NCBI GenBank assembly: GCA_022709385.1
Contig: JAKLIX010000021.1
Location: forward strand, 1 to 64,000
Origin: Bacteroidota bacterium
Lineage (GTDB): Bacteria; Bacteroidota; Bacteroidia; Bacteroidales; CAIXZF01
Direction of reading: 5' to 3'
Length of the DNA: 64,000 nucleotides
Shown here: piece after piece, positions 28,571-57,564 of the stretch
Numbering within the stretch: the first letter of the stretch is position 1
How the letters are laid out: every line of letters starts with the position of its first letter
Program-made: the position numbers and the translations under genes
Notes under the pieces: model-generated
Told to the model about the DNA's origin: nothing
The model's input: only the letters and a program-made list of their open reading frames with translations
Databases searched by the model: none

Positions 28571-28656
28571 GATGAATGGTTTTGGTTTCAGTGGTCAAAT
28601 GCCTGGCCAGCCACCGCCGGGAAAATTTCTTACAAATGTATGGAATTCCTGAAAAA

Positions 28657-28732
28657 GACAATTTCCGGTCAGATTCTTTCTACCGATGACTCAGGATCAC
28701 AATATTCGCATTCCTGTGTTCTTTCGGTATAC
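28657..28732 (-). repeat. Dispersed repeat family 1, inverted copy at left edge of AT-rich island
   Basis: Read on the minus strand: TATACCGAAAGAACACAGG, AATGCG, GAGTCATCGGTA, then GAATCTGACCGGAAATTG. It is truncated at its 3' end. It occupies the 318-bp gap 28571-28888 together with a promoter; no gene is seen there. Its orientation is opposite to the copies at 29201, 30041 and 32086. Confidence 0.75.
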
Positions 28733-28866
28733 ATCAGAAAAAAGAGGATAAACGCAGTATAACAGAAGCACATAATCCAATCCACATGCCTCATATTCTA
28801 TTAGATAACAGTACAACAGGCTTGTCTTCTGTGCAAATACGTTCGTGCCTTTTGAAATAAAATTCG

Positions 28867-28874
28867 TATCTTTG
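28867..28874 (+). promoter_or_regulatory. Bacteroidota -7 element (TATCTTTG) of the nucleotidyltransferase gene
   Basis: TATCTTTG matches TAnnTTTG and lies 15 nt before the ATG at 28889. An upstream TTTG exists but at a short spacing, so only the -7 part is convincing. Confidence 0.5.
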
Positions 28875-28888
28875 TTTAGGGTATCCAC

Positions 28889-29176
28889 ATGAACTCCGAG
28901 ATTACAAACATCATAATCAGCACATTACAGGAATATAGTCCTGTAAGAATTGGCATATTTGGTTCTTATGCAAGGAATGAAAACCATAAAGCCAGTGATA
29001 TAGATATCCTTGTAAAATTCAAATCCACCCTTTCTCTTCTCCAATTGGTTCATGTGGAAAGAGTGATATCACAAAAGCTTGGTATCAAAGTTGACCTTGT
29101 TACAGAAGGTGCGATTAAGAACAAGTATGTAAAGGAAAATATTGAAAGGGATCTTCAAATCATCTATCAACGATAA
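28889..29176 (+). CDS. Minimal nucleotidyltransferase (MNT domain), stand-alone
   Basis: 95 residues forming a complete MNT fold: the active-site motif GIFGSYARNENHKASDIDIL (G-S-x9-D-x-D, residues about 22-41) and a third acidic position in KVDLVTEG. MNT proteins are usually antitoxins of HEPN-MNT pairs and can AMPylate the HEPN toxin. Here no HEPN gene lies on either side, so the partner is lost, elsewhere in the genome, or not required. The gene is AT-rich compared with its surroundings and bracketed by two repeat copies in opposite orientations (28657-28732 and 29201-29370), suggesting it was acquired. Own promoter-like TATCTTTG just upstream. Confidence 0.85.
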   Translation: MNSEITNIIISTLQEYSPVRIGIFGSYARNENHKASDIDILVKFKSTLSLLQLVHVERVISQKLGIKVDLVTEGAIKNKYVKENIERDLQIIYQR

Positions 29177-29200
29177 AGATTCAATAAAAATAACTTCAGC

Positions 29201-29370
29201 AGGCATTAATAATTAAACAGAACTCTGAGCGGTCTGCAAGACTGTGTGAGGAGTCTGTGTTGAACGATACCGAAAGAACAGAGGAATGCGAAATAATTGT
29301 TTCTAGAGTCATCGGTATAACTGAATCTAAGCGAAAATTACTTCGCATTATCAGTAAGATTCAGTATAAA
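29201..29370 (+). repeat. Dispersed repeat family 1, long form, copy A
   Basis: Two parts. The 5' block (29201-29266) contains ACTCTGAGCGGTCTGCAAG and GGAGTCTGTGTTGAAC, with a GGTCTGCAAGAC hairpin. The core (29267-29370) contains ATACCGAAAGAACAGAGG, AGAGTCATCGGTAT, then a second hairpin ACTGAATCTAAGCG...AAGATTCAGT around CTTCGCAT. It starts 25 nt after the nucleotidyltransferase stop codon. Same order and orientation as the copies at 30041 and 32086. Confidence 0.85.
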
Positions 29371-29394
29371 TAAAATCACATGTTGGTAACAAAA

Positions 29395-29471
29395 GCATAA
29401 AAGCTAACCAATGACGGCATTCCGTAAAGGTTCTGTAAAACAAGGTCAGCTTCTGTGCTAAAACGTTATGC
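29395..29471 (+). other. attC-like imperfect inverted repeat upstream of the YcxB-like gene
   Basis: GCATAA (29395-29400) pairs with TTATGC (29466-29471), and AAGCTAACC (29401-29409) with GGTCAGCTT (29444-29452, one mismatch). The sequence ends GTTATGC, close to but not exactly the integron core GTTRRRY. The two paired boxes are contiguous on the left but 13 nt apart on the right, unlike a standard attC. It lies 17 nt before the ATG at 29488. Recorded as a candidate recombination or regulatory structure only. Confidence 0.3.
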
Positions 29472-29487
29472 TTAATCATATAAGAAA

Positions 29488-30033
29488 ATGACGATAGATT
29501 ATAAAATTGACGAAAATGACTTTTTGACATATCAACTATATGTTGCTTCAAAGTCTGACCGAATTAAAAAGAAAAGACAAAGAAGTAGATTAATAGTGCC
29601 ATTAATTTACATTGTCTTTGGACTTATATTCTTTATTGAAGACAACTTAACATTGTCAATTATTTTTTTTATTATTGGATTTCTCTGGTTTTTCATTTAC
29701 CCACTTTGGGAAAGAGGACATTATATCAAACATTACAAAAGCTTTATCAAAGAAAACTATAAAGACAGATTTAACAGAATAGCGACTTTAGAGTTTAATA
29801 ATGACTTTATACTAACAAAGGACAGCGGAAGCGAAAGTAAGGTTTTGACAACAGAAATAGACGAAATAAACGAAATATCATCTACAATATTCGTCAGACT
29901 TAAAGGCGGACAATCCTTAATTTTACCAAAGGACAAGATAGCCGACATAGCCAACGTTACTTCCAGACTAAAAGCGCTGACAGAATATTTAAAGATTAAA
30001 TATGACATAGACGAAAAATGGGAATGGAAATAA
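29488..30033 (+). CDS. YcxB-like membrane protein
   Basis: 181 residues. A short N-terminal soluble segment (ENDFLTYQLYVASKS) is followed by two membrane helices (about residues 34-50 and 55-72). A C-terminal beta/alpha domain has the family-type phrase RIATLEFNNDFILTKDSGSESKVLTTEIDEI (quoted here as a marker region, residues about 95-125) and LILPKDKI. This is the YcxB-like architecture, a widespread family of unknown function. AT-rich, with Lys/Ile/Asn-rich coding unlike the GC-richer flanks. It stands alone between two long-form repeats and resembles the genes commonly found in cassette arrays. No catalytic residues visible. Confidence 0.8.
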   Translation: MTIDYKIDENDFLTYQLYVASKSDRIKKKRQRSRLIVPLIYIVFGLIFFIEDNLTLSIIFFIIGFLWFFIYPLWERGHYIKHYKSFIKENYKDRFNRIATLEFNNDFILTKDSGSESKVLTTEIDEINEISSTIFVRLKGGQSLILPKDKIADIANVTSRLKALTEYLKIKYDIDEKWEWK

Positions 30034-30040
30034 TTACCGG

Positions 30041-30168
30041 GCATAATAAACAGGACTCTGCCCGTTCTGCAAGACCGGCGGAGGAGTCTGTGTTGAACAT
30101 ACAAAAAGAACAGAGGAATGCGAAAAATTGTTTCCAGAGTCATCGGTATAACTGAATCTGAACTGAAT
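30041..30168 (+). repeat. Dispersed repeat family 1, long form, copy B
   Basis: Begins 8 nt after the YcxB-like stop: ACTCTGCCCGTTCTGCAAG, CGGAGGAGTCTGTGTTGAAC, AAAGAACAGAGGAATGCGA, AGAGTCATCGGTATAACTG, AATCT. The 3' hairpin is truncated. Colinear with copies A and C. The remaining gap to 30301 holds only the promoter at 30269. Confidence 0.85.
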
Positions 30169-30268
30169 ATTTTTAAAGAACATTTATGGATTAATTTATG
30201 CGATTCGCCAAAACGCAAAGGTCCTTCTCTCAAACACCAATGTATAAAATACTTTTGAAAAAATATTT

Positions 30269-30276
30269 TAAATTTG
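30269..30276 (+). promoter_or_regulatory. Bacteroidota -7 element (TAAATTTG)
   Basis: TAAATTTG matches TAnnTTTG, 25 nt before the ATG at 30302. The -33 position is AT-rich without a clear TTTG at the normal spacing. Confidence 0.45.
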
Positions 30277-30301
30277 CAACTTAATTTTAAACCGCAAAAA
30301 A

Positions 30302-32056
30302 ATGAAAAAGATTTATATCCTTTTTATTATTGCTTTATCATTAAGAGCAGCTGCACAAAGCAATTTAGCGATGCTTTATAGTAGTGCAGGTATGGAATAC
30401 GGAAAAGCAAGTGCTATTGATGCTGACACGAACTATATCAATGGTTCGTTGTTTCAAAACACAATCAATGTAAATCCAAACGGTACAACCAATTTAACAG
30501 CACCCGGAGCAACTACTCATATTGCACTGACAAAATATAATCGTGAAGGTCAGTTGCTGTGGGCAAAAATGTTTGGTGGTGTTACAACAAGTGAAGCACC
30601 TCATGGAATAGATTGTGATGCTGCCAAAAATATTTATGTTACAGGGTATTTTGGGAGCACTACATTAACAGGACCACAAAATGCTGACTTTAATCCGCTT
30701 GGTGGTGGAACAGTCACGACACAAGGTAACGAAGATTGTTTCGTTGCAAAGTATGACCAAAATGGGAATTATCAATGGGCTTTTGGACTTGGAAATATTA
30801 GTCAAGAAACACAAGAAAGGGCTTGGGATATTTCAACAGATGCAAACGGTAATTCCTATGTGGTAGGTGGTTTCCATGGGACAATAAATTTTAATCCCTT
30901 AGGAACAGCGATGAATTATGCATTACCTGACACACTTGTAGGTTTATTTATTTCAAAATACAATACGAATGGTATTTGTCAATGGGTAATAATGCTTGAT
31001 GCTCAATGCACCAGTGTATTCACAGAAGGATATGCAACTTGCAATATAGACAATTTGGGTAATTTATATGTTGCAGGTAATTTCAGGGGTTCCAATATTA
31101 ATTTCAACCCTCTTGGCACATTAACAACTTTAACAAGCAGCGGTTTGACTGATATGTTTATTGCAAAATATGATGTGATAAACGGAAATTTGTATTGGGT
31201 TAAGAAAATTGGCGGTACTGCTCAAGACATTGTTTCACCAGGTGCCTTAAGATGTGATAATAATGGAAATCCATACTTTACAGGTCGGTTAAGCGGAACT
31301 GGTAGTGTTGATTTTGACCCTTCAGCAGGAACATCCAATATTACAAATTCAGCCTTGTTTTTAGTTTCGTATGATGCTTCAGGTAATTTGAGATATGTTA
31401 CAGGAATGAATAGTGGTGCAGGTGATGGTGGACACAGAGTCTCATTTGACAATTTAAATAATGTTTACATTGCAGGATGGATGAATGGTACGGCAACTTT
31501 TGGAACTTTTACAAGGACAGCAAATTCTCTTACCGCTGATGTATTTTTAGCAAAATACAATAACAACTTAACTAATTGTAGTTGGGCTTTAAATTTCGGC
31601 GGAACAGGAAGTACAGCAAATAATATATGTGCAGGTCTCTCAGTTGACCAAGAGAACAACCCAATTATTACAGGACAGCTATATGGAACTAATGCTAATG
31701 TAAATCCACTGGGAACAACTGCTTTAAATTTATCTAGCGTTGGAAACAACGATTGTTTTGTTATCAAGTATAACTCTGATGGTAATTTATGGCAAAACAC
31801 TACAGTTGGATTGAATAATTTGCATATAGAAAATAATAAAATAAAGATAAACCCAAATCCAACGACAAATTTTATTAATTTTGAAACTCGATTAGCCATT
31901 AATTCTGCTTTGATTTACAATACTTTAGGACAACATTTTAATTGTAAAATAGAAAGTGTAAAAATTGATGTTTCAAATCTAGAGACAGGCATATACTTTA
32001 TATTATTCACTGACCAATTAGGTAAAACATACACTACGAAATTCGTAAAAAACTGA
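30302..32056 (+). CDS. T9SS-secreted SBBP-type beta-propeller protein
   Basis: 584 residues with signal peptide (KIYILFIIALSLRAAAQ). The body consists of about seven repeats of 60-70 residues, each containing a phrase like FVAKYDQNGNYQWAFGLG followed by NIYVTGYF or NLYVAGNF and FNPLG. This is the SBBP/beta-propeller pattern common in Bacteroidota surface proteins. The T9SS sorting tail is at residues about 505-584 (INPNPTTNFINFET, IYNTLGQHF, GIYFILFTDQLGKTYTTKFVKN). It probably binds ligands or serves structurally at the surface; no enzyme motif. Strongly AT-rich compared with other T9SS genes in the window, consistent with foreign origin. Followed after 29 nt by long-form repeat copy C. Confidence 0.88.
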   Translation: MKKIYILFIIALSLRAAAQSNLAMLYSSAGMEYGKASAIDADTNYINGSLFQNTINVNPNGTTNLTAPGATTHIALTKYNREGQLLWAKMFGGVTTSEAPHGIDCDAAKNIYVTGYFGSTTLTGPQNADFNPLGGGTVTTQGNEDCFVAKYDQNGNYQWAFGLGNISQETQERAWDISTDANGNSYVVGGFHGTINFNPLGTAMNYALPDTLVGLFISKYNTNGICQWVIMLDAQCTSVFTEGYATCNIDNLGNLYVAGNFRGSNINFNPLGTLTTLTSSGLTDMFIAKYDVINGNLYWVKKIGGTAQDIVSPGALRCDNNGNPYFTGRLSGTGSVDFDPSAGTSNITNSALFLVSYDASGNLRYVTGMNSGAGDGGHRVSFDNLNNVYIAGWMNGTATFGTFTRTANSLTADVFLAKYNNNLTNCSWALNFGGTGSTANNICAGLSVDQENNPIITGQLYGTNANVNPLGTTALNLSSVGNNDCFVIKYNSDGNLWQNTTVGLNNLHIENNKIKINPNPTTNFINFETRLAINSALIYNTLGQHFNCKIESVKIDVSNLETGIYFILFTDQLGKTYTTKFVKN

Positions 32057-32085
32057 TATGACTGAAAGAAAATAAAAGAACGAAC

Positions 32086-32226
32086 GCACAATAAACAAAA
32101 CTCTGAGCGGTCTGCAAGACCGGTTGAGGATTCTGTGTTGAACTACACCGAAAGAACAGAGGAATGCGATGTGTGTTACTTGAGTCATCGGTATTACTGA
32201 ATCTAAACTAAAATTGCTTCGCACAG
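32086..32226 (+). repeat. Dispersed repeat family 1, long form, copy C
   Basis: ACTCTGAGCGGTCTGCAAG with perfect CGGTCT-GCA-AGACCG hairpin, GAGGATTCTGTGTTGAAC, ACACCGAAAGAACAGAGG, TGAGTCATCGGTATTACTG, AATCTAAACTAAAATTGC, TTCGCA. Starts 29 nt after the stop at 32056. It marks the right edge of the AT-rich island; GC rises immediately in the next gene. Confidence 0.85.
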
Positions 32227-32274
32227 CCAACGACAAGCACAATCGCATGTGTGTAAGAAACATCCTGTATTTCC

Positions 32275-32305
32275 TTGACAATCAAAACACAAATGCGTAT
32301 ATTTG
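32275..32305 (+). promoter_or_regulatory. Bacteroidota promoter of the giant beta-helix gene
   Basis: TTG at 32275-32277 (in CCTTGACA) and TATATTTG at 32298-32305 with 20 nt between, close to the TTTG-N19-TAnnTTTG consensus. The start codon ATG at 32324 follows by 18 nt, so the leader is very short. Confidence 0.6.
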
Positions 32306-32323
32306 GGGCTTATACATAAGCTG

Positions 32324-35300
32324 ATGAAAAGTTTCTTTCCCCTTTGCGGCAGGCTGCTCCTGCTTCCGCTGGCAGTTTGCGCCTTTACGGCTTTTGGCCG
32401 GCAAGCCGTTGTGGCAGAAAAAAGCCACAATGACAGCCACCCCGCCGGCCATCCCCGGTCATCCCTCATTGAAAAAGCAAACATTCAGAAAACAGCGGTA
32501 CTGGAGGCGATCCGGCAACTGAAGCTCCGCATTTCCATTGAAAAGCCCGATGCCTCCGAAAAACTTCTGCAGCGCCTGGACCAATTCGGGGACCAGCTCA
32601 ATACAACTGCCGTTTATTTACTCTTTGAAGCACAAGGCCGGTTCTATTTACTGAATTGCTCGACCTATGGGATTGTATCAGTGGGCAAGTACAAGGGCGG
32701 GAACCATCCGCTCGACAGGGGACTGCGGCATGCTGCGGCATCCGCAGCAGGAAACATCCCAGTGGTATTCGTATTCGACACACACAAGGCAGGGATCGTT
32801 TTTGACGAGGCTTATCCTTCTGTGATTGCCATTGGCGTCGGCGCAGAAATCCGAACGAAATACCAGGGACAGGGGATGGTGTTCCGGAATCAGAACCCGG
32901 TCGTGGTGGCCGGTTTCTCCGTCAACCAATGTTCTGGTGAAGAAGGCGGGGGTGTAGCCATTGAAGATGCCGAAGTGATGCTGCTTCTGAACGCATTCAG
33001 CAGCAACAAGGCAGCGGAACAAGGGGGAGGTGTCTGCTGCGGCAACAGTAGCGGCAGACAGGCCCTGCTGTGGATGAATTTTTTTCAGGGGAATACGGCT
33101 CCATCGGGCGGGGGCCTTGCCCTGGCCGGCGACACTTCCTCCCTGGTGATGGGCAATTGGTTTGAAAACAATCTAGCTACCGGGAAAGGCGGTGGTATTT
33201 ATATGACGAACTGCTGCCTGTCGCTGCTTGCAGGCAATTATATCAGAGAGAATACCGTACCGGCAGGCTCCGGCGGCGGCATCGGATTGGAACATTGCGC
33301 CGGTGCAATCATTGCTGGCAATGTTATTTCCAATAACGAAGCCTTTCAAAACGGGGGAGGGATTGCCTGCATGGCAGACAGCGCTTTCATTCACATTCCC
33401 GTATTGCTTTCATGCAACCGTATCACTTCCAATGCTGCTTCGCAACTCGGGGGAGGGATATCGGTGAAGGACGACCAGGAGGTGCTCATCATCGGAAATA
33501 TGATCACCTATAACGAAGCAGACAGCGGCGGGGGTATCTTTTTACATACCTCCAACCTGATCACCCAGGCCGGGGGGAATGAGATCCGGAGCAATCATGC
33601 CGTCAAAGGCGGTGGACTGTACAGTTACAACGCAGCTTCCATCGTTTATGCCAACAAGTTTGAGACGAACACCGCCGATTCCTGCGGCGCCGGCTTCATG
33701 GGATTTAACTGCGGAACCCTTGCACATAATACACTTTCAGACAACCAGAGTCCCTGCGGGGCGGGCATGCAGCTTGAAGGGGGGAACAGCCCGCGCATCC
33801 ACGACAATTTCATCTCCGGCAACCTGGCGGACAGGGGTGCCGGGGCCTGTATCAGCGGCGGATGCGATGCGCTGGTGTACGAAAACACTTTCAGTTCGAA
33901 TGAAGCTGCGACAGCAGGCGGAGGACTTTTCATCCGGGGAAACGGCACCCATCCCCTGATCGATACGGCCAATCTCTTTCTGAACAACAAAGCCGGTGAA
34001 GGCGGCGCCATCTGGTTCGGATATTCTTCAGAACCGGTGATCTGCAGGAGTTATTTCAGGAATAACCTCGCCACCCGTGGCGGAGCCGTGGCGGCAGCGG
34101 CTTCCCAGGCCGTCGTCAGCGACAATGCGTTTGTTTCCAACAAGGCCTTACAGTGCGGAGGAGCGGTATACGTTTATCCGGGACAGACCCTTGATATCAG
34201 CAACAACCTTTTCAGCAACAACATTGCCGGTTATGTGCCTCCGGGACAGCCGTTTCCTGTCGCGACCGGGAAACCGCTCAGCCCGCCAAGGGGCGGAGCC
34301 GTCATGGCCGACGGACCGGGAACGGTGGTCCGTTTCCTGCACAACCGGTTTACGGAGAACCTGTCCATGTTGTCGGACGGGGGAGCCGTGGCTCTGGGGT
34401 CGGTGGACGGAACTTTCAATCAAAACACCTTTCTTGCGAACTTTGCCGCCTACGGAGGTTTGAACGGAAGGGGCGGCGCGGTTTACAGCGAGGACTCCCG
34501 GCTGAATCACAGCGGTGACAGCCTGTTGTGGAATGTGGCCACACATGGCGGGGGCATGGCATTTCAGGGAAGCGGCGCCGACACCCTGAACCACTGTGTG
34601 TTCATGTATAACATCGCCGACAAGGACAGCCTTTCGGCAGGACTGGGCGGGGCCGTCTTTCTCAACGGAACGGTATTTACAGACAGCCTGATCATTGTTA
34701 ACAGTGACTTTCAATACAACTACGCAGCCCTGGGTGGGGCCATCGGGATCACTTCAGGCGCTTCCTCAGTCAAAAGCAGTGTTTTCTCCTCCAACCGCGC
34801 CGCATCCTTCTCAGGCAGCGGCTCGGGAGGTGCCATCCATGCCGGCAGCCAGCAAAGCCGTTTGCAGCTGGGCGGAAACGAAGCGCTGGAAGAAGGAAAC
34901 CTGTTTGAGCAAAACACTGCAGGCCGTCCCGCCCTGCCCGGGTTTGCACATGGTGGTGCCCTTTCCCTGACAGATGGGGCCAAGGCAGACATTTTCGGGA
35001 ACACCTTCAACAACCACAATGCCTGCAGCGGAAGAGGCGGTGCGGTTTACCTCCAGGGAACGGGAACCTGGTGCCGCTTCGGGGAATACAACGAGGGTCC
35101 GATCACCCAGCACCCCTGGCCATCCTTTCAATACGGCAACATCATCCAGAACAACAACCGCAGCCTTTCCGACTCCGTCTCCTACCCGGTGATCCACTGG
35201 CCAACTGATACCACCATCAATCCCTCCCTGCCGGATACCCTCGTCACTCCGCCCGTCTGGCCCGATACCACCCGGCAAACACTCCCTCTTACTGCCCTGG

Positions 35301-38300
35301 CAAAGGGAATACCGCTGTCTGTCCTTCCGGAGGAAGCCTTCACTCCCCTGACATTTTTGTATGTCCATGAAAAATATTACGGTCTGAAGCTTTTGGATGC
35401 CACCCACCCCACCCATATGCTGCTTCGGGATTCCATCCGGCCGGACAAACCAATAATAGATTATTGTTCAGGTAATCAAAGACTTGCAGTACTTCTCCAC
35501 CCTGACGGGCTGCTGCTGTACAGTACTGACTCCCTGGTCACGGCCCATCACCTGCTTTTCACCGACAGCATCTCCCTTCCCGACTCCTCGTTCCGTTGTA
35601 TCAGCCTGGGAGGGAACAGGCTGTTTTTGTCGAATGAGCGGGAGATCCACGCCCTTTCGCCCGGAGACAGCACCCACCAGCTCAGCCTGCTGTACACCAG
35701 CCAGGATACGGGCGACTGCAGTTTTTCCTTCCTAAAACACAGCGGCGACAGGCTTTATGCCATCCTCGACAGGGACAGCTGCTCTGAAATCCTGGTATTC
35801 TACTGGCTGGGCGGCGAACTGACGCCCGCCGGAAGCTTTGTGATGCCGGTACCAGACGATGTGTTCGAACTGAACGACACCCTGTATGTCACGATACAGG
35901 CCACACAGAACGGAGTGCCCGTCTGGATGATAAAAGCGCTGGATTGCACCCAGGCCTGGAATATTCAGGAGATCCCCGCTCTTTCTCAATTTAGCTTTAC
36001 GCAGGAAGTCCTTTCCATTTATGCCGATCCGTCGCGCATGTTCGTCGTGCTGCCGGATGAGATCCGGGTAACAGAAAAAGCATTTAACCTGACGATCATT
36101 TACCCCCTGGCTGGAGCCCAGTACGTCGACCTGAACTCCAAGCCCTTATCTCAGTATATATTTGGTGCTTCTCCCGCGGCAGGAATCGTATCGATGAGTA
36201 AAACCATGCTCAACCCGCTTGATACACTGGCACCGGATCTGCTGTCCGCACCGCTTTCCTTTACCTGGCCTGCCCTGCTGTCATTCCCGCCTGAGCCTGC
36301 ATGGACACCGGATATTCCGCTCATTCCGGACACCGTGGTCTTTGATCCGCCTCCAGGAGCAGGCAAATTCCTGCCCAGTCCACCGAAAAACCTGCCTTTC
36401 CCCAATCCCGTATTCCCCTGCGACAGCAGCAAGCTCCTGATCACACTTGACGGCGGTTTTCTGGCCGTGGTGGATAAGGCTGAAGCGGCCGTGAGGGGAA
36501 ACCTCATCGGCGGGGAAAGCCTTGAAGAAGCCAATACGGCCCGGCAGTGCGGGGGCGGAATCTTTGTCCTGGACGGCGGGCGTGACCTGAGCATCGGCGA
36601 CACCAATCCTCCTCAGAAAGATTACACCAACTTTGTCCGTGGTAACCTGGCTGCCAGGGGAGGCGGCATCTATGTGAAAAACCACAGGGATCAAACACTC
36701 CCGGTCATCAACAACCATATCGGCGGCCGGACCAGGTATGCGGGGAACCATGCAGGAGAGACCGGCGGCGGCATCTGGGCAGATTCCAGCCATCTCAGCC
36801 TGCAGATGAATTACATCCTGTGCAACTCCTGTGGATTTGATTCGGTGAAGGAATTCAATACCGTACTGCCGGGCTACGGTGGCGGGATCGGCATCCGTCA
36901 ACCAGGCAATACCGATATCGGGTACAACTGGATCATCGGTAATTTTTCCATGGGAAATGCCGGAGGCCTTGGGCTTGCCGGTATCCGGCAGCCAAACACC
37001 GGCCTGCAAATCCATCACAACACCTTTACGGAAAACCATGCCGTTGATGAAGGAACTCCCCGGGAAGATGATACCCTGGTGAGGCCTGTGGGAACGGAGA
37101 TCTGCATCAACCTTCAGGACGACAGCCTCTGGGTGCTCAATATCCCTGTCGTTCAGCTTCATCACAACCTGGTGGAAAGCCTGGGCATCACGGATGCCTA
37201 TGCGCTGGCCGTGGATACGGTGCGCTCCGATACGGCGGCCGTGGATCTTCAGGACAACAATCTGTGGAGCATTTCAGGGAAGAAATATGCCGGAGTGCGT
37301 GATCAGACAGGACTGAACGGGAATGTATCCATCGTTCCTTCCTATGCCGATCCCGCCGCAGGCGATTACAACATTCTTGCCGCTTCGCCTTCCGCAACAT
37401 ACGGCTGGAGTCCTGCACCCGCGAGCAGCGGGATTTCATGTGACACATTGCGGGTACCTTCGGGATATCCCCTGATCCAGGCCGCCATGAATGCCGCCGG
37501 ATATGGCGACTGCATCCTGGTAGACACTTCCTACCAGCCGGCAAACGAGAGTTTCCCCGTGCAGGTAAAAGACGGTGTCAACCTGACGGGAGCCGCATTT
37601 GCCGGGGAAAGAGACCTCAGCCTGATCAGGAGACAGCTGATCGACGGTCAGGGCGCCGCCAGTATCTTCATCCTGCAGGACTGCGGGCCGAGGACACTGA
37701 TACGGGGCTTCAGCCTGACGAATGCTTCCACCGCCATCAGGGCCTTTCACAGCGGAGGCCGCATTTACCATAATGTATTCTTCAACAACGGCGACGATTT
37801 CAAAATCAGCTGCGACTCAGCGGAAAACGGCATGCCCGTGATCTATCCCGATCACAATACCATGAGGGGAAATGCCGTGGTGCTGTTCAGTGCCGGCACG
37901 CCGGGTGAAGAAGCAAGCGAACGGATTGCAGCAGGACCGGTATTTACTTATAATACTATCAATCAGCTTATTACTAACATCGACTCCCTCTATCCCGACC
38001 CGGTAAACCACAGGCCCGGGCCCTGGATCAATATCGGGCTGGCACACAACCATGGTCATTTGCAAGGGTATTATCCGGGTCTTCCCTGGCCTGTCAGCGG
38101 GATCAGCGGGGGAGACCCGGGCTTTTACGACACCCTTGCGGGAGACTACAGGCTGCAGAACAATTCCCATCTGCTGGATTTCCGGCGGTCGAACCGTTTT
38201 AGCGGGGCACTCTATGTAGCCCTGAGGCCAGATTTTGAATGTGCTGATACCCTGGCCTTTATCCCTTTCACAGTGCAACTCCTTGATTCATCCGAGGGGC

Positions 38301-38959
38301 ATCCCCGCGACAGCCTGCGTTATTGCTGGCATCTGTCCACCGGCGACAGTTCCATTGCGAAAAGCCCTGTCTTCACCATACAATCCGAAGGCTTGCACGG
38401 CTGTGCGCTCAGGGTGAGGGATCCTTACCAGTCGGAGTACCTGGAAAGGGACAGCCTGTTCCGGGGGCTTCTGCCCGGAGGGGCGATCCACGGGCTGGTC
38501 TATTACGACCGGCCTGATAAGCCTCTGATGGACTCAGTGAGGGTGGTGATCACTGACACGGCAGGCGGTTGGGCAGACACCCTGATGACTTCATCCATGG
38601 GAGATTACTGGATCAGCGGTCTGGCTGGAGGCAATTACGTACTGACGGCCGAACCCCTTCAGAATCCCGGCGGCATCAACATGATAGATGCCTTGCTGAC
38701 GCTGCTCCATTACGCAGGCCTCGACACCCTGAGCGGACTGCCCCTGTTGGCGGCCGATGTCAATGCATCCGGCAATGTGAATGCTGTCGACGGACTGCTG
38801 ATACAACGTTACTTCGTCGGCCTGATCCCGGGCTTCCCCCGTGGACCGTGGGTTGCAGAGATCATACCAGTGATCATCCCATCAGGCCAGAATACCTTCC
38901 GGAGTGTCCGGACGGCCGTCCTGTCGACCGGAGACGCCAACGCTTCCTTTCATCCCTGA
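32324..38959 (+). CDS. Giant secreted beta-helix protein with dockerin-like C-terminus, no T9SS tail
   Basis: 2,211 residues from ATG 32324 (KSFFPLCGRLLLLPLAVCAF signal region); an upstream in-frame TTG at 32303 would lie inside the promoter. Residues about 190-925 and 1370-1940 are right-handed parallel beta-helix made of many short coils with the motif N.A...GGGI/GGGL/GGAV. Between them (about 985-1320) is a propeller-like segment with a Leu-rich, Asp-rich pattern. About 1965-2045 look PKD-like. About 2050-2190 are a carboxypeptidase-regulatory fold followed by a dockerin-like module (GGINMIDALLTL, ADVNASGNVNAVDGLL). The same module precedes the cohesin-like and sorting domains of the protein at 15412-20904, but here the chain stops right after it, so the export tail is missing. 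Likely adhesin or polysaccharide-binding; truncation is possible. Confidence 0.83.
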   Translation: MKSFFPLCGRLLLLPLAVCAFTAFGRQAVVAEKSHNDSHPAGHPRSSLIEKANIQKTAVLEAIRQLKLRISIEKPDASEKLLQRLDQFGDQLNTTAVYLLFEAQGRFYLLNCSTYGIVSVGKYKGGNHPLDRGLRHAAASAAGNIPVVFVFDTHKAGIVFDEAYPSVIAIGVGAEIRTKYQGQGMVFRNQNPVVVAGFSVNQCSGEEGGGVAIEDAEVMLLLNAFSSNKAAEQGGGVCCGNSSGRQALLWMNFFQGNTAPSGGGLALAGDTSSLVMGNWFENNLATGKGGGIYMTNCCLSLLAGNYIRENTVPAGSGGGIGLEHCAGAIIAGNVISNNEAFQNGGGIACMADSAFIHIPVLLSCNRITSNAASQLGGGISVKDDQEVLIIGNMITYNEADSGGGIFLHTSNLITQAGGNEIRSNHAVKGGGLYSYNAASIVYANKFETNTADSCGAGFMGFNCGTLAHNTLSDNQSPCGAGMQLEGGNSPRIHDNFISGNLADRGAGACISGGCDALVYENTFSSNEAATAGGGLFIRGNGTHPLIDTANLFLNNKAGEGGAIWFGYSSEPVICRSYFRNNLATRGGAVAAAASQAVVSDNAFVSNKALQCGGAVYVYPGQTLDISNNLFSNNIAGYVPPGQPFPVATGKPLSPPRGGAVMADGPGTVVRFLHNRFTENLSMLSDGGAVALGSVDGTFNQNTFLANFAAYGGLNGRGGAVYSEDSRLNHSGDSLLWNVATHGGGMAFQGSGADTLNHCVFMYNIADKDSLSAGLGGAVFLNGTVFTDSLIIVNSDFQYNYAALGGAIGITSGASSVKSSVFSSNRAASFSGSGSGGAIHAGSQQSRLQLGGNEALEEGNLFEQNTAGRPALPGFAHGGALSLTDGAKADIFGNTFNNHNACSGRGGAVYLQGTGTWCRFGEYNEGPITQHPWPSFQYGNIIQNNNRSLSDSVSYPVIHWPTDTTINPSLPDTLVTPPVWPDTTRQTLPLTALAKGIPLSVLPEEAFTPLTFLYVHEKYYGLKLLDATHPTHMLLRDSIRPDKPIIDYCSGNQRLAVLLHPDGLLLYSTDSLVTAHHLLFTDSISLPDSSFRCISLGGNRLFLSNEREIHALSPGDSTHQLSLLYTSQDTGDCSFSFLKHSGDRLYAILDRDSCSEILVFYWLGGELTPAGSFVMPVPDDVFELNDTLYVTIQATQNGVPVWMIKALDCTQAWNIQEIPALSQFSFTQEVLSIYADPSRMFVVLPDEIRVTEKAFNLTIIYPLAGAQYVDLNSKPLSQYIFGASPAAGIVSMSKTMLNPLDTLAPDLLSAPLSFTWPALLSFPPEPAWTPDIPLIPDTVVFDPPPGAGKFLPSPPKNLPFPNPVFPCDSSKLLITLDGGFLAVVDKAEAAVRGNLIGGESLEEANTARQCGGGIFVLDGGRDLSIGDTNPPQKDYTNFVRGNLAARGGGIYVKNHRDQTLPVINNHIGGRTRYAGNHAGETGGGIWADSSHLSLQMNYILCNSCGFDSVKEFNTVLPGYGGGIGIRQPGNTDIGYNWIIGNFSMGNAGGLGLAGIRQPNTGLQIHHNTFTENHAVDEGTPREDDTLVRPVGTEICINLQDDSLWVLNIPVVQLHHNLVESLGITDAYALAVDTVRSDTAAVDLQDNNLWSISGKKYAGVRDQTGLNGNVSIVPSYADPAAGDYNILAASPSATYGWSPAPASSGISCDTLRVPSGYPLIQAAMNAAGYGDCILVDTSYQPANESFPVQVKDGVNLTGAAFAGERDLSLIRRQLIDGQGAASIFILQDCGPRTLIRGFSLTNASTAIRAFHSGGRIYHNVFFNNGDDFKISCDSAENGMPVIYPDHNTMRGNAVVLFSAGTPGEEASERIAAGPVFTYNTINQLITNIDSLYPDPVNHRPGPWINIGLAHNHGHLQGYYPGLPWPVSGISGGDPGFYDTLAGDYRLQNNSHLLDFRRSNRFSGALYVALRPDFECADTLAFIPFTVQLLDSSEGHPRDSLRYCWHLSTGDSSIAKSPVFTIQSEGLHGCALRVRDPYQSEYLERDSLFRGLLPGGAIHGLVYYDRPDKPLMDSVRVVITDTAGGWADTLMTSSMGDYWISGLAGGNYVLTAEPLQNPGGINMIDALLTLLHYAGLDTLSGLPLLAADVNASGNVNAVDGLLIQRYFVGLIPGFPRGPWVAEIIPVIIPSGQNTFRSVRTAVLSTGDANASFHP

Positions 38960-39031: not shown

Positions 39032-39134
39032 TATACCGAAAGAACACAGGGATGCGATGTGTGTTACCTGAGTCATCGGTATTACTGAATCTAACCGAAA
39101 ATTGCTTCGCATTTTCACTAAGATTCATTATAAA
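39032..39134 (+). repeat. Dispersed repeat family 1, core copy D
   Basis: Intact 103-bp core: TATACCGAAAGAACACAGGG, ATGCGATGTGTGTTACC, GAGTCATCGGTATTACTGA, then the second hairpin ending AAGATTCATTATAAA. It lies between the beta-helix gene and the peptide transporter, and its last part is in frame with the transporter, which creates an apparent but unlikely upstream start. The 184-bp gap also holds a weak GCCGTAAGGC...TTTTCGTTTT hairpin after 38959. Confidence 0.85.
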
Positions 39135-48065: not shown

Positions 48066-48167
48066 TTGAACTGAATCTGAGTGAAAATGCGAAGCAATTT
48101 CCGCTTAGATTCTTTATACCGATGACGCTGGAAACACCCATCGCATTCCTGTGTTCTTTCGTTATGG
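48066..48167 (-). repeat. Dispersed repeat family 1, inverted copy F between kinase and regulator
   Basis: Minus-strand reading: ACGAAAGAACACAGGAATG, CGATGGGTGTTTCCAG, CGTCATCGGTATAAAGAA, TCTAAGCGGAAATTGCTTC, then ATTTTCACTCAGATTCAGT. It is preceded (48171-48240) by a different 5' block with GGCTTAAAGCC and GCATGTCGGAGATTCGTC. Same orientation as the two-component genes. Confidence 0.8.
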
Positions 48168-48309
48168 TTGCCAAGCCCACGGTGACGAATCTCCGACATG
48201 CAGGCACAGGCTTTAAGCCGGCATGAACAGAGAACGAGGAGGTGGTATCCAAACGTAACGAAATTACTGCATTCTGCAGAATGAATCACCTCCCCGGTTC
48301 GTAGTATTT

Positions 48310-57463: not shown

Positions 57464-57564
57464 TATACCGAAAGGACACAGGAATGCGATGTGTGTTTCC
57501 AGCGTCATCGGTATACAGCGTCTTACTGAACATTGCTTCGATTATCACTAAGATTCAGTATAAA
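57464..57564 (+). repeat. Dispersed repeat family 1, core copy E
   Basis: TATACCGAAAGGACACAGGA, ATGCGATGTGTGTTTCCAG, CGTCATCGGTATACAGCG, TCTTACTGAACATTGCTTC, then ACTAAGATTCAGTATAAA. It sits between the sugar transferase and Wzi-like genes and is in frame with the latter, creating a spurious upstream extension. A weak promoter (TTTG at 57584, TACATTTT at 57606) follows. Confidence 0.82.

Follow-up and report, generated by a model that had tools for sequence, protein, structure and literature searches.

The stretch of DNA analysed here (64,000 nucleotides, positions 1 to 64,000 of contig JAKLIX010000021.1 of a Bacteroidota bacterium, order Bacteroidales; hereafter the window) contains at positions 28571-32323 an island of three genes on the plus strand, each with a copy of one repeat behind it, always in the same orientation. 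The first gene (28889-29176) encodes a nucleotidyltransferase of the MNT type (PF01909, 61.5 bits), the second (29488-30033) a YcxB-like protein (PF14317 at 19.4 bits and E=9e-4, under the cut-off of 23.3 for this family) and the third (30302-32056) an SBBP beta-propeller protein with a Por secretion tail (Por_Secre_tail; PF18962, PF06739). The G+C content is 0.32-0.36 within the island and 0.47-0.59 in its flanks, and the number of repeat matches was reached by none of 100 shuffled sequences, which excludes chance. The like-oriented gene-repeat pairs and the AT-rich island between GC-richer flanks had been pointed out in an earlier note made from the letters of the window, and the coordinates and composition agree with it: the array is real. 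The gap between stop codon and repeat, given there as 8-29 nt, was corrected to 11-35 nt, measured from the stop to the block described below. No integrase lies in the window, as the note had said, and tyrosine recombinases are found on other contigs of the genome. Relatives carrying the same three genes in the same order and no repeats, which the note would have counted against a cassette array, were not encountered in the sampled order; the nearest YcxB homologue there is 59% identical and has a different gene context. Homologues of YcxB in other genomes mostly lack cassette ends, and a plasmid search with the YcxB protein gave no match.

The note had treated the repeat of 128-170 bp as one unit. 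Its presence after the genes stands, while the genome search splits it into two parts, namely a 5' block of about 52-58 nt and a dispersed palindromic element of 80-105 bp that resembles miniature inverted-repeat transposable elements (MITE) or repetitive extragenic palindromes (REP). With the whole repeat as query against the bacterium's own genome, nearly all of the 40 matches listed are confined to the final ~80 nt, and one (C12:235666) to the first 67 nt. The blocks lie on the plus strand at 29212-29263, 30045-30096 and 32090-32141, with 60.4, 59.8 and 56.4 bits, respectively, in covariance model R1. Block 1, which may be viewed as an attC-like site body or as the left flank of the module X introduced below, has the hairpin GACTC..GGTCT GCA AGACC..GAGTC and the end G|TTGAAC. 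The MITE/REP-like element (TACCGAAAG...GATTCAGTATA) is fused behind this TTGAAC at 29268-29368, follows block 2 in truncated form at 30099-30160 and follows block 3 at 32144-32225, always on the plus strand; copies are found genome-wide. The element is about 105 bp long (TATACCGAAAG...GATTCAGTATA) and occurs in many places of the own genome; with the ends TATACCG and CAGTATA it was seen in both orientations at about 40 places. In relatives from other families, the block stands without this element, and what comes behind it is different sequence that is specific to the genome.

Contrary to what had been proposed, the 5' block also occurs outside the island: further copies lie on contigs C12 and C6 of the same genome and many in other genomes. 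GTDB genomes and viral contigs were scanned with a pattern, which together with later genome searches gave about 95 copies, essentially all in Bacteroidota and nearly all behind the stop codons of AT-rich genes. The covariance model of the block matched 54 of the 344 genomes sampled from the order to which the window belongs, and arrays of unrelated genes with blocks were found at several loci (L073, L169, L184 and L170). Searches with the repeat in Rfam, at the gathering or a permissive threshold, and for tRNA gave no match. The block was also considered as a stand-alone RNA; its hairpin is conserved in sequence and covariation is weak, for which reason this idea is not argued.

At locus L073, the sequence immediately preceding each block was seen to be reverse-complementary to the 5' end of its own gene unit, this end lying downstream of the site before it. 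Over the last ~15 nt ahead of the block, the pairing with this 5' end runs through GTT and seven further pairs, an A·C mismatch at position 11 and then four pairs. The ends of the mobile units are private inverted repeats and can be written as R' = GTTRNNNNNN-A-NNNN on the 5' side and R'' = NNNN-C-NNNNNNYAAC/T on the 3' side. Over all blocks, an upstream partner with 9/9 matches was found in 18% of cassettes compared with 0.26% of mismatched controls, and one with at least eight matches in 26% compared with 1%. The stem was then read in the 30 clearest cassettes, where positions 11-16 had played no part in the choice of partner. Positions 1-10 are paired in these; position 11 is paired in 3%, being A in 29/30 on the 5' side and C in 24/30 on the 3' side; positions 12-15 hold 3.27 of four pairs versus 2.03 in shuffles (the maximum of 1000 shuffles being 2.4); and position 16, mostly A-A, is never paired. 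Orthologous cassettes keep the pairing despite changes on both sides (GTTGTGGGTA/TACCCACAAC, GTTGTGGTTA/TAACCACAAC and GTTAGCGG/CCGCTAAT). This private R'/R'' pairing resembles that of integron attC sites.

Between the R'' of one unit and the GTT of the next lies a site body, which is either an attC-like body of ~120 nt or the 52-nt block. In six site bodies the distance from R'' to GTT is 130-132 nt, and these have inner complementary arms. An inner motif like TTCAACTTTnnTGTAAnTTGACAGGAAAT..CGnAATC is common to the bodies of L221, L226, L228, L169 and L247, which look unrelated and may thus belong to one fast-diverging family.

The corresponding features of the window are all on the plus strand. 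An attC-like site body at 28757-28840, with the arms CAGAAG/CTTCTG, precedes the nucleotidyltransferase cassette (cassette 1) and ends in ..AAATAC|GTT, this GTT being the one that pairs with the R'' of cassette 1. R' (GTTCGTGCCTTTTGA, 28841-28855) and R'' (CAGCAGGCATTAAT, 29197-29210) of this cassette form 11/13 scored pairs, which was matched by 0.3% of shuffles. A second body (29390-29464), found by alignment with the first and homologous to it at both ends, precedes YcxB and ends in CTTCTGTGCTAAAAC|GTT; R' (GTTATGCTTAATCAT, 29465-29479) and R'' (TTACCGGGCATAAT, 30034-30047) of cassette 2 form 10/13 scored pairs (3.8% of shuffles). For the SBBP gene (cassette 3), a probable degenerate R' (TTTATGCGATTCG, 30195-30207), which lacks GTT, pairs weakly with R'' (GAACGAACGCACAAT, 32078-32092), with 7/9 pairs and 10% of shuffles.

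A mobile cassette array had been suggested in the note, and comparison of relatives supports it in the form of gene units with private inverted ends and sharp boundaries that recur across genomes. Two Fic-like cassettes in L200 and L107 have swapped contexts with homology that stops at R'', and each has the block next to it in one of these genomes and an attC-like body in the other. For a Fic-gene cassette that is up to 97-98% identical in unrelated genomes, homology stops exactly at R' and R''. Cassette B is present in 30/344 genomes from many families, some of the matches being short; copies with intact ends retain R' (GTTAGGCTTT) and R'' (AAAGCCTAA(C/T)) unchanged or almost so, and the next body is different in every genome. 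The last 148 nt of this cassette have a mean identity of 0.82 (0.97-0.98 among four loci) and the next 120 nt one of 0.58, which is the shuffled level; in cassette A, identity falls from 0.76 before R'' to the same shuffled level of 0.58 in the next 120 nt. Hence, in cassettes A and B the site body does not move with the gene. Toxin-antitoxin-like and Fic-like genes, recognised by reading rather than by family search, are among the cassettes, as in integrons. At L203 (1800-3340), consecutive cassettes resemble, as judged by eye, toxin-antitoxin pairs of the YefM/RelE-like and HigBA-like kinds. This evidence for shuffling comes from the relatives; the three cassettes of the window itself were not caught moving.

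Behind the block, independent genomes have a gene for an IS91-family transposase (tnpA) and then one for a tyrosine recombinase (int), both antisense. This module X, or an internally deleted derivative (mini-X), nearly always comes next after the block. Full copies of X measure 2.38-2.42 kb and mini-X 0.3-0.65 kb, with the same inverted ends. X is itself a cassette (R' = GTTGAACTAcATCCC, R'' = GGGATtTAGTTCAAC), and its ends, GTTGAACTA c ATCCC ... GGGAT t TAGTTCAAC, follow the cassette-type rule; X and mini-X sit at cassette sites. The idea that the whole ~330-nt stretch from block to GTT is one giant attC was dropped once X turned out to be a cassette in its own right, and the idea that the block is merely the gene's own attC was weakened because the block nearly always comes with X. 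The alternative offered in the note, a small element inserted at gene 3' ends, is thereby true in part: the block is the flank of a cassette that carries int and the IS91 transposase, or of its deletion derivatives. A close int was found in 25/344 genomes, 13 of which also have the block, compared with 3.9 expected from the two frequencies, and at eight loci block and int lie within a few kilobases of each other. An intact int is present in G227, a genome in a single contig. In the genome of the window, the only int-tnpA pair is diverged and broken; it lies on contig C23, at whose end there is a fragment of another int. At L202 (1800-1865), on the same contig C23, a diverged X is preceded by a hairpin, GGCTTC..TGGTCATGCCTCATGACCCA..GAAGCC-GTG|TTGCAC, with the layout of the block and a different sequence. 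A second class of int-tnpA module, with an int that is ~56% identical, is present six times in genome G220 (L210-L212), and no block was seen beside these copies.

The int of X has a PF13495 (Phage_int_SAM_4) N-domain and PF00589, and the catalytic pattern R...HxxR...H...Y is visible in its sequence. Its nearest solved relatives are of the XerA type (4a8e and 5hxy), followed by IntI4. Five X ints scored 153-167 bits (152.9-166.8) on TIGR02249, the cut-off being 265, and 191-201 bits on NF040815, the cut-off being 220. Residues 182-249 of IntI4, which we take to be the region of the IntI-specific domain, have only ~26 counterparts in the X int. The predicted enzyme is a XerA/IntI-like tyrosine recombinase that appears to lack this domain. 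The tnpA of module X in the relatives, the window having none, has the domains Y2_Tnp and Zn_Tnp_IS91 and scores 397.7 bits on NF033538.

Taken together, the island is probably the small remnant of an array belonging to an integron-like cassette system of Bacteroidota, which would work in the following way. In single-stranded DNA, R' and R'' of one unit would pair with each other. What is an A-C mismatch in the top strand becomes a G-T wobble in the bottom one, which should therefore fold better; this asymmetry suggests recombination of the folded bottom strand. The folded R'/R'' would be a structure-specific site for int, which is proposed to cut at the GTT boxes and to excise or insert gene units. 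Because it lacks the IntI-specific domain, int may use either R box, and units could in that way exchange their site bodies; this body swap is the least understood point of the mechanism. The transposase would carry the block, together with X or mini-X, to sites immediately behind R''. The blocks of the window would then be remnants of X, with a host MITE behind TTGAAC, and the window array is therefore probably immobile today. It is tentatively suggested, at somewhat less than even chances, that such arrays form a distinct class of cassette recombination, in which units are defined only by private inverted ends and recombine at both R boxes, bodies are supplied by the host, and the recombinase is itself a cassette that rides with an IS91 transposase.

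Several observations weigh against an integron-like remnant array. A close X int is missing from many of the genomes that have the block (54 versus 25 of 344), and the closest int of the own genome is broken by two stops. The R boxes of the window are imperfect and that of SBBP is weak. A hold-out of the R'-side motif without complementarity gave a modest result (10.5% versus 0.7% with at least 6/7), partly because the motif-only search picked distant sites. The stability of the site-body hairpins mostly does not exceed that of shuffles (z -3.8 to +0.7). Cassette movement is deduced from comparison, neither excision nor a circle having been observed, and swapping of site bodies is not what canonical integron recombination predicts.

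A rival view is that the units are ordinary integron cassettes in clusters of attC sites lacking an integrase (CALIN), moved by an unseen canonical IntI, with the block as a short attC, X as a passenger and bodies acquired by secondary attC replacement. The attC-like layout (R''-spacer-L''-loop-L'-spacer-GTT) and the body lengths of 130-132 nt including R'' fit this view, and a review counts Bacteroidota among the integron-bearing phyla (PMC8618304). It is nonetheless unlikely, given that gene units move without the body, that the R stem is 14-15 bp long with a fixed mismatch instead of a 7-bp R box, that the X ints score below the TIGR02249 cut-off and lack the IntI domain, and that IntegronFinder 2.0 found in Bacteroidetes only In0 and one complete integron, in Salinibacter (PMC9024848). 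Arrays could also be built by one-ended rolling-circle transposition of an IS91-like element, in which tnpA captures the genes flanking its end and int is accessory. That the 3' side of tnpA always faces the block, that block and mini-X stand behind different genes within one genome, and that gene, block and X alternate would be expected from it; it is improbable all the same, as it leaves unexplained the private complementary gene ends with their compensatory changes and the variety of non-X bodies found with one and the same cassette. A terminator or MITE-like element inserting after stop codons of immobile genes, as the blocks 11-35 nt past stops and the truly dispersed, MITE-like 3' half of the repeat might suggest, is very improbable and already contradicted by gene units with their own boundaries, 5' partners and differing genomic contexts.

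Besides those behind the blocks, further copies of the MITE/REP-like element lie in the window at 28678-28730 (minus strand), 39032-39111, 48088-48169 (minus strand) and 57464-57540. Directly after the array, 32303-38959 encodes a NosD-like (right-handed beta-helix) protein of ~2200 residues with PMP-like repeats and a dockerin-like C-terminus.

Integrons are the textbook platform of gene capture, yet they have been held to be nearly absent from Bacteroidota (PMC9024848). The integron-like cassette pool described here spans many families of one order; one simple rule that can be tested (10 bp, A-C mismatch, 4 bp) unites it, and the mobility gene belongs to the pool. The taxon-specific attC models published so far do not cover Bacteroidota (PMC8352920). 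How genes gain attC sites is an open question of the field, cassette genesis being discussed in the same paper, and a gene found with many site bodies makes it testable. If the distinct class is real, Bacteroidota would possess a counterpart of integrons, with exchange of attC bodies and the capacity to convert new genes into cassettes. No description of IS91 with a tyrosine recombinase in Bacteroidetes was found in the literature, subscription journals being outside the search.

Among known systems, MITE/REP elements correspond to the 3' part of the repeat, the dispersed palindrome of 105 bp, which differs from the rest in having no role in the cassette rule and in being absent behind the blocks of other genomes. 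Archaeal XerA provides the best solved relatives of the X int, which scores under the NF040815 cut-off and, unlike XerA, carries a Phage_int_SAM_4 N-domain and occurs in association with a transposase and with cassette sites. With IS91-family transposons (Y2 HUH), X in the relatives shares a tnpA with Y2 and zinc-binding domains, and the block sits at the 3' side of tnpA, where oriIS would be. Members of this family with a second, integrase-like open reading frame exist; X differs in being bounded by cassette-type inverted ends, lying at cassette sites and encoding a tyrosine recombinase. The likeness to integrons and CALINs extends to tandem single-gene cassettes, sites with a GTT crossover box, an R'' complementary to the cassette's own 5' end (relative to mismatched and shuffled controls), attC-like bodies with inner complementary arms, a tyrosine recombinase divergent from the following cassette, and toxin-antitoxin and accessory genes. 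The differences are the XerA-like recombinase, which falls short of the IntI models, its place inside a mobile cassette alongside an IS91 transposase, the longer R stem, the dispersed arrays and the site body that is not carried with the gene. Because the recombinase is not an IntI and the body does not travel with the cassette, the system is classified as integron-like rather than as an integron.

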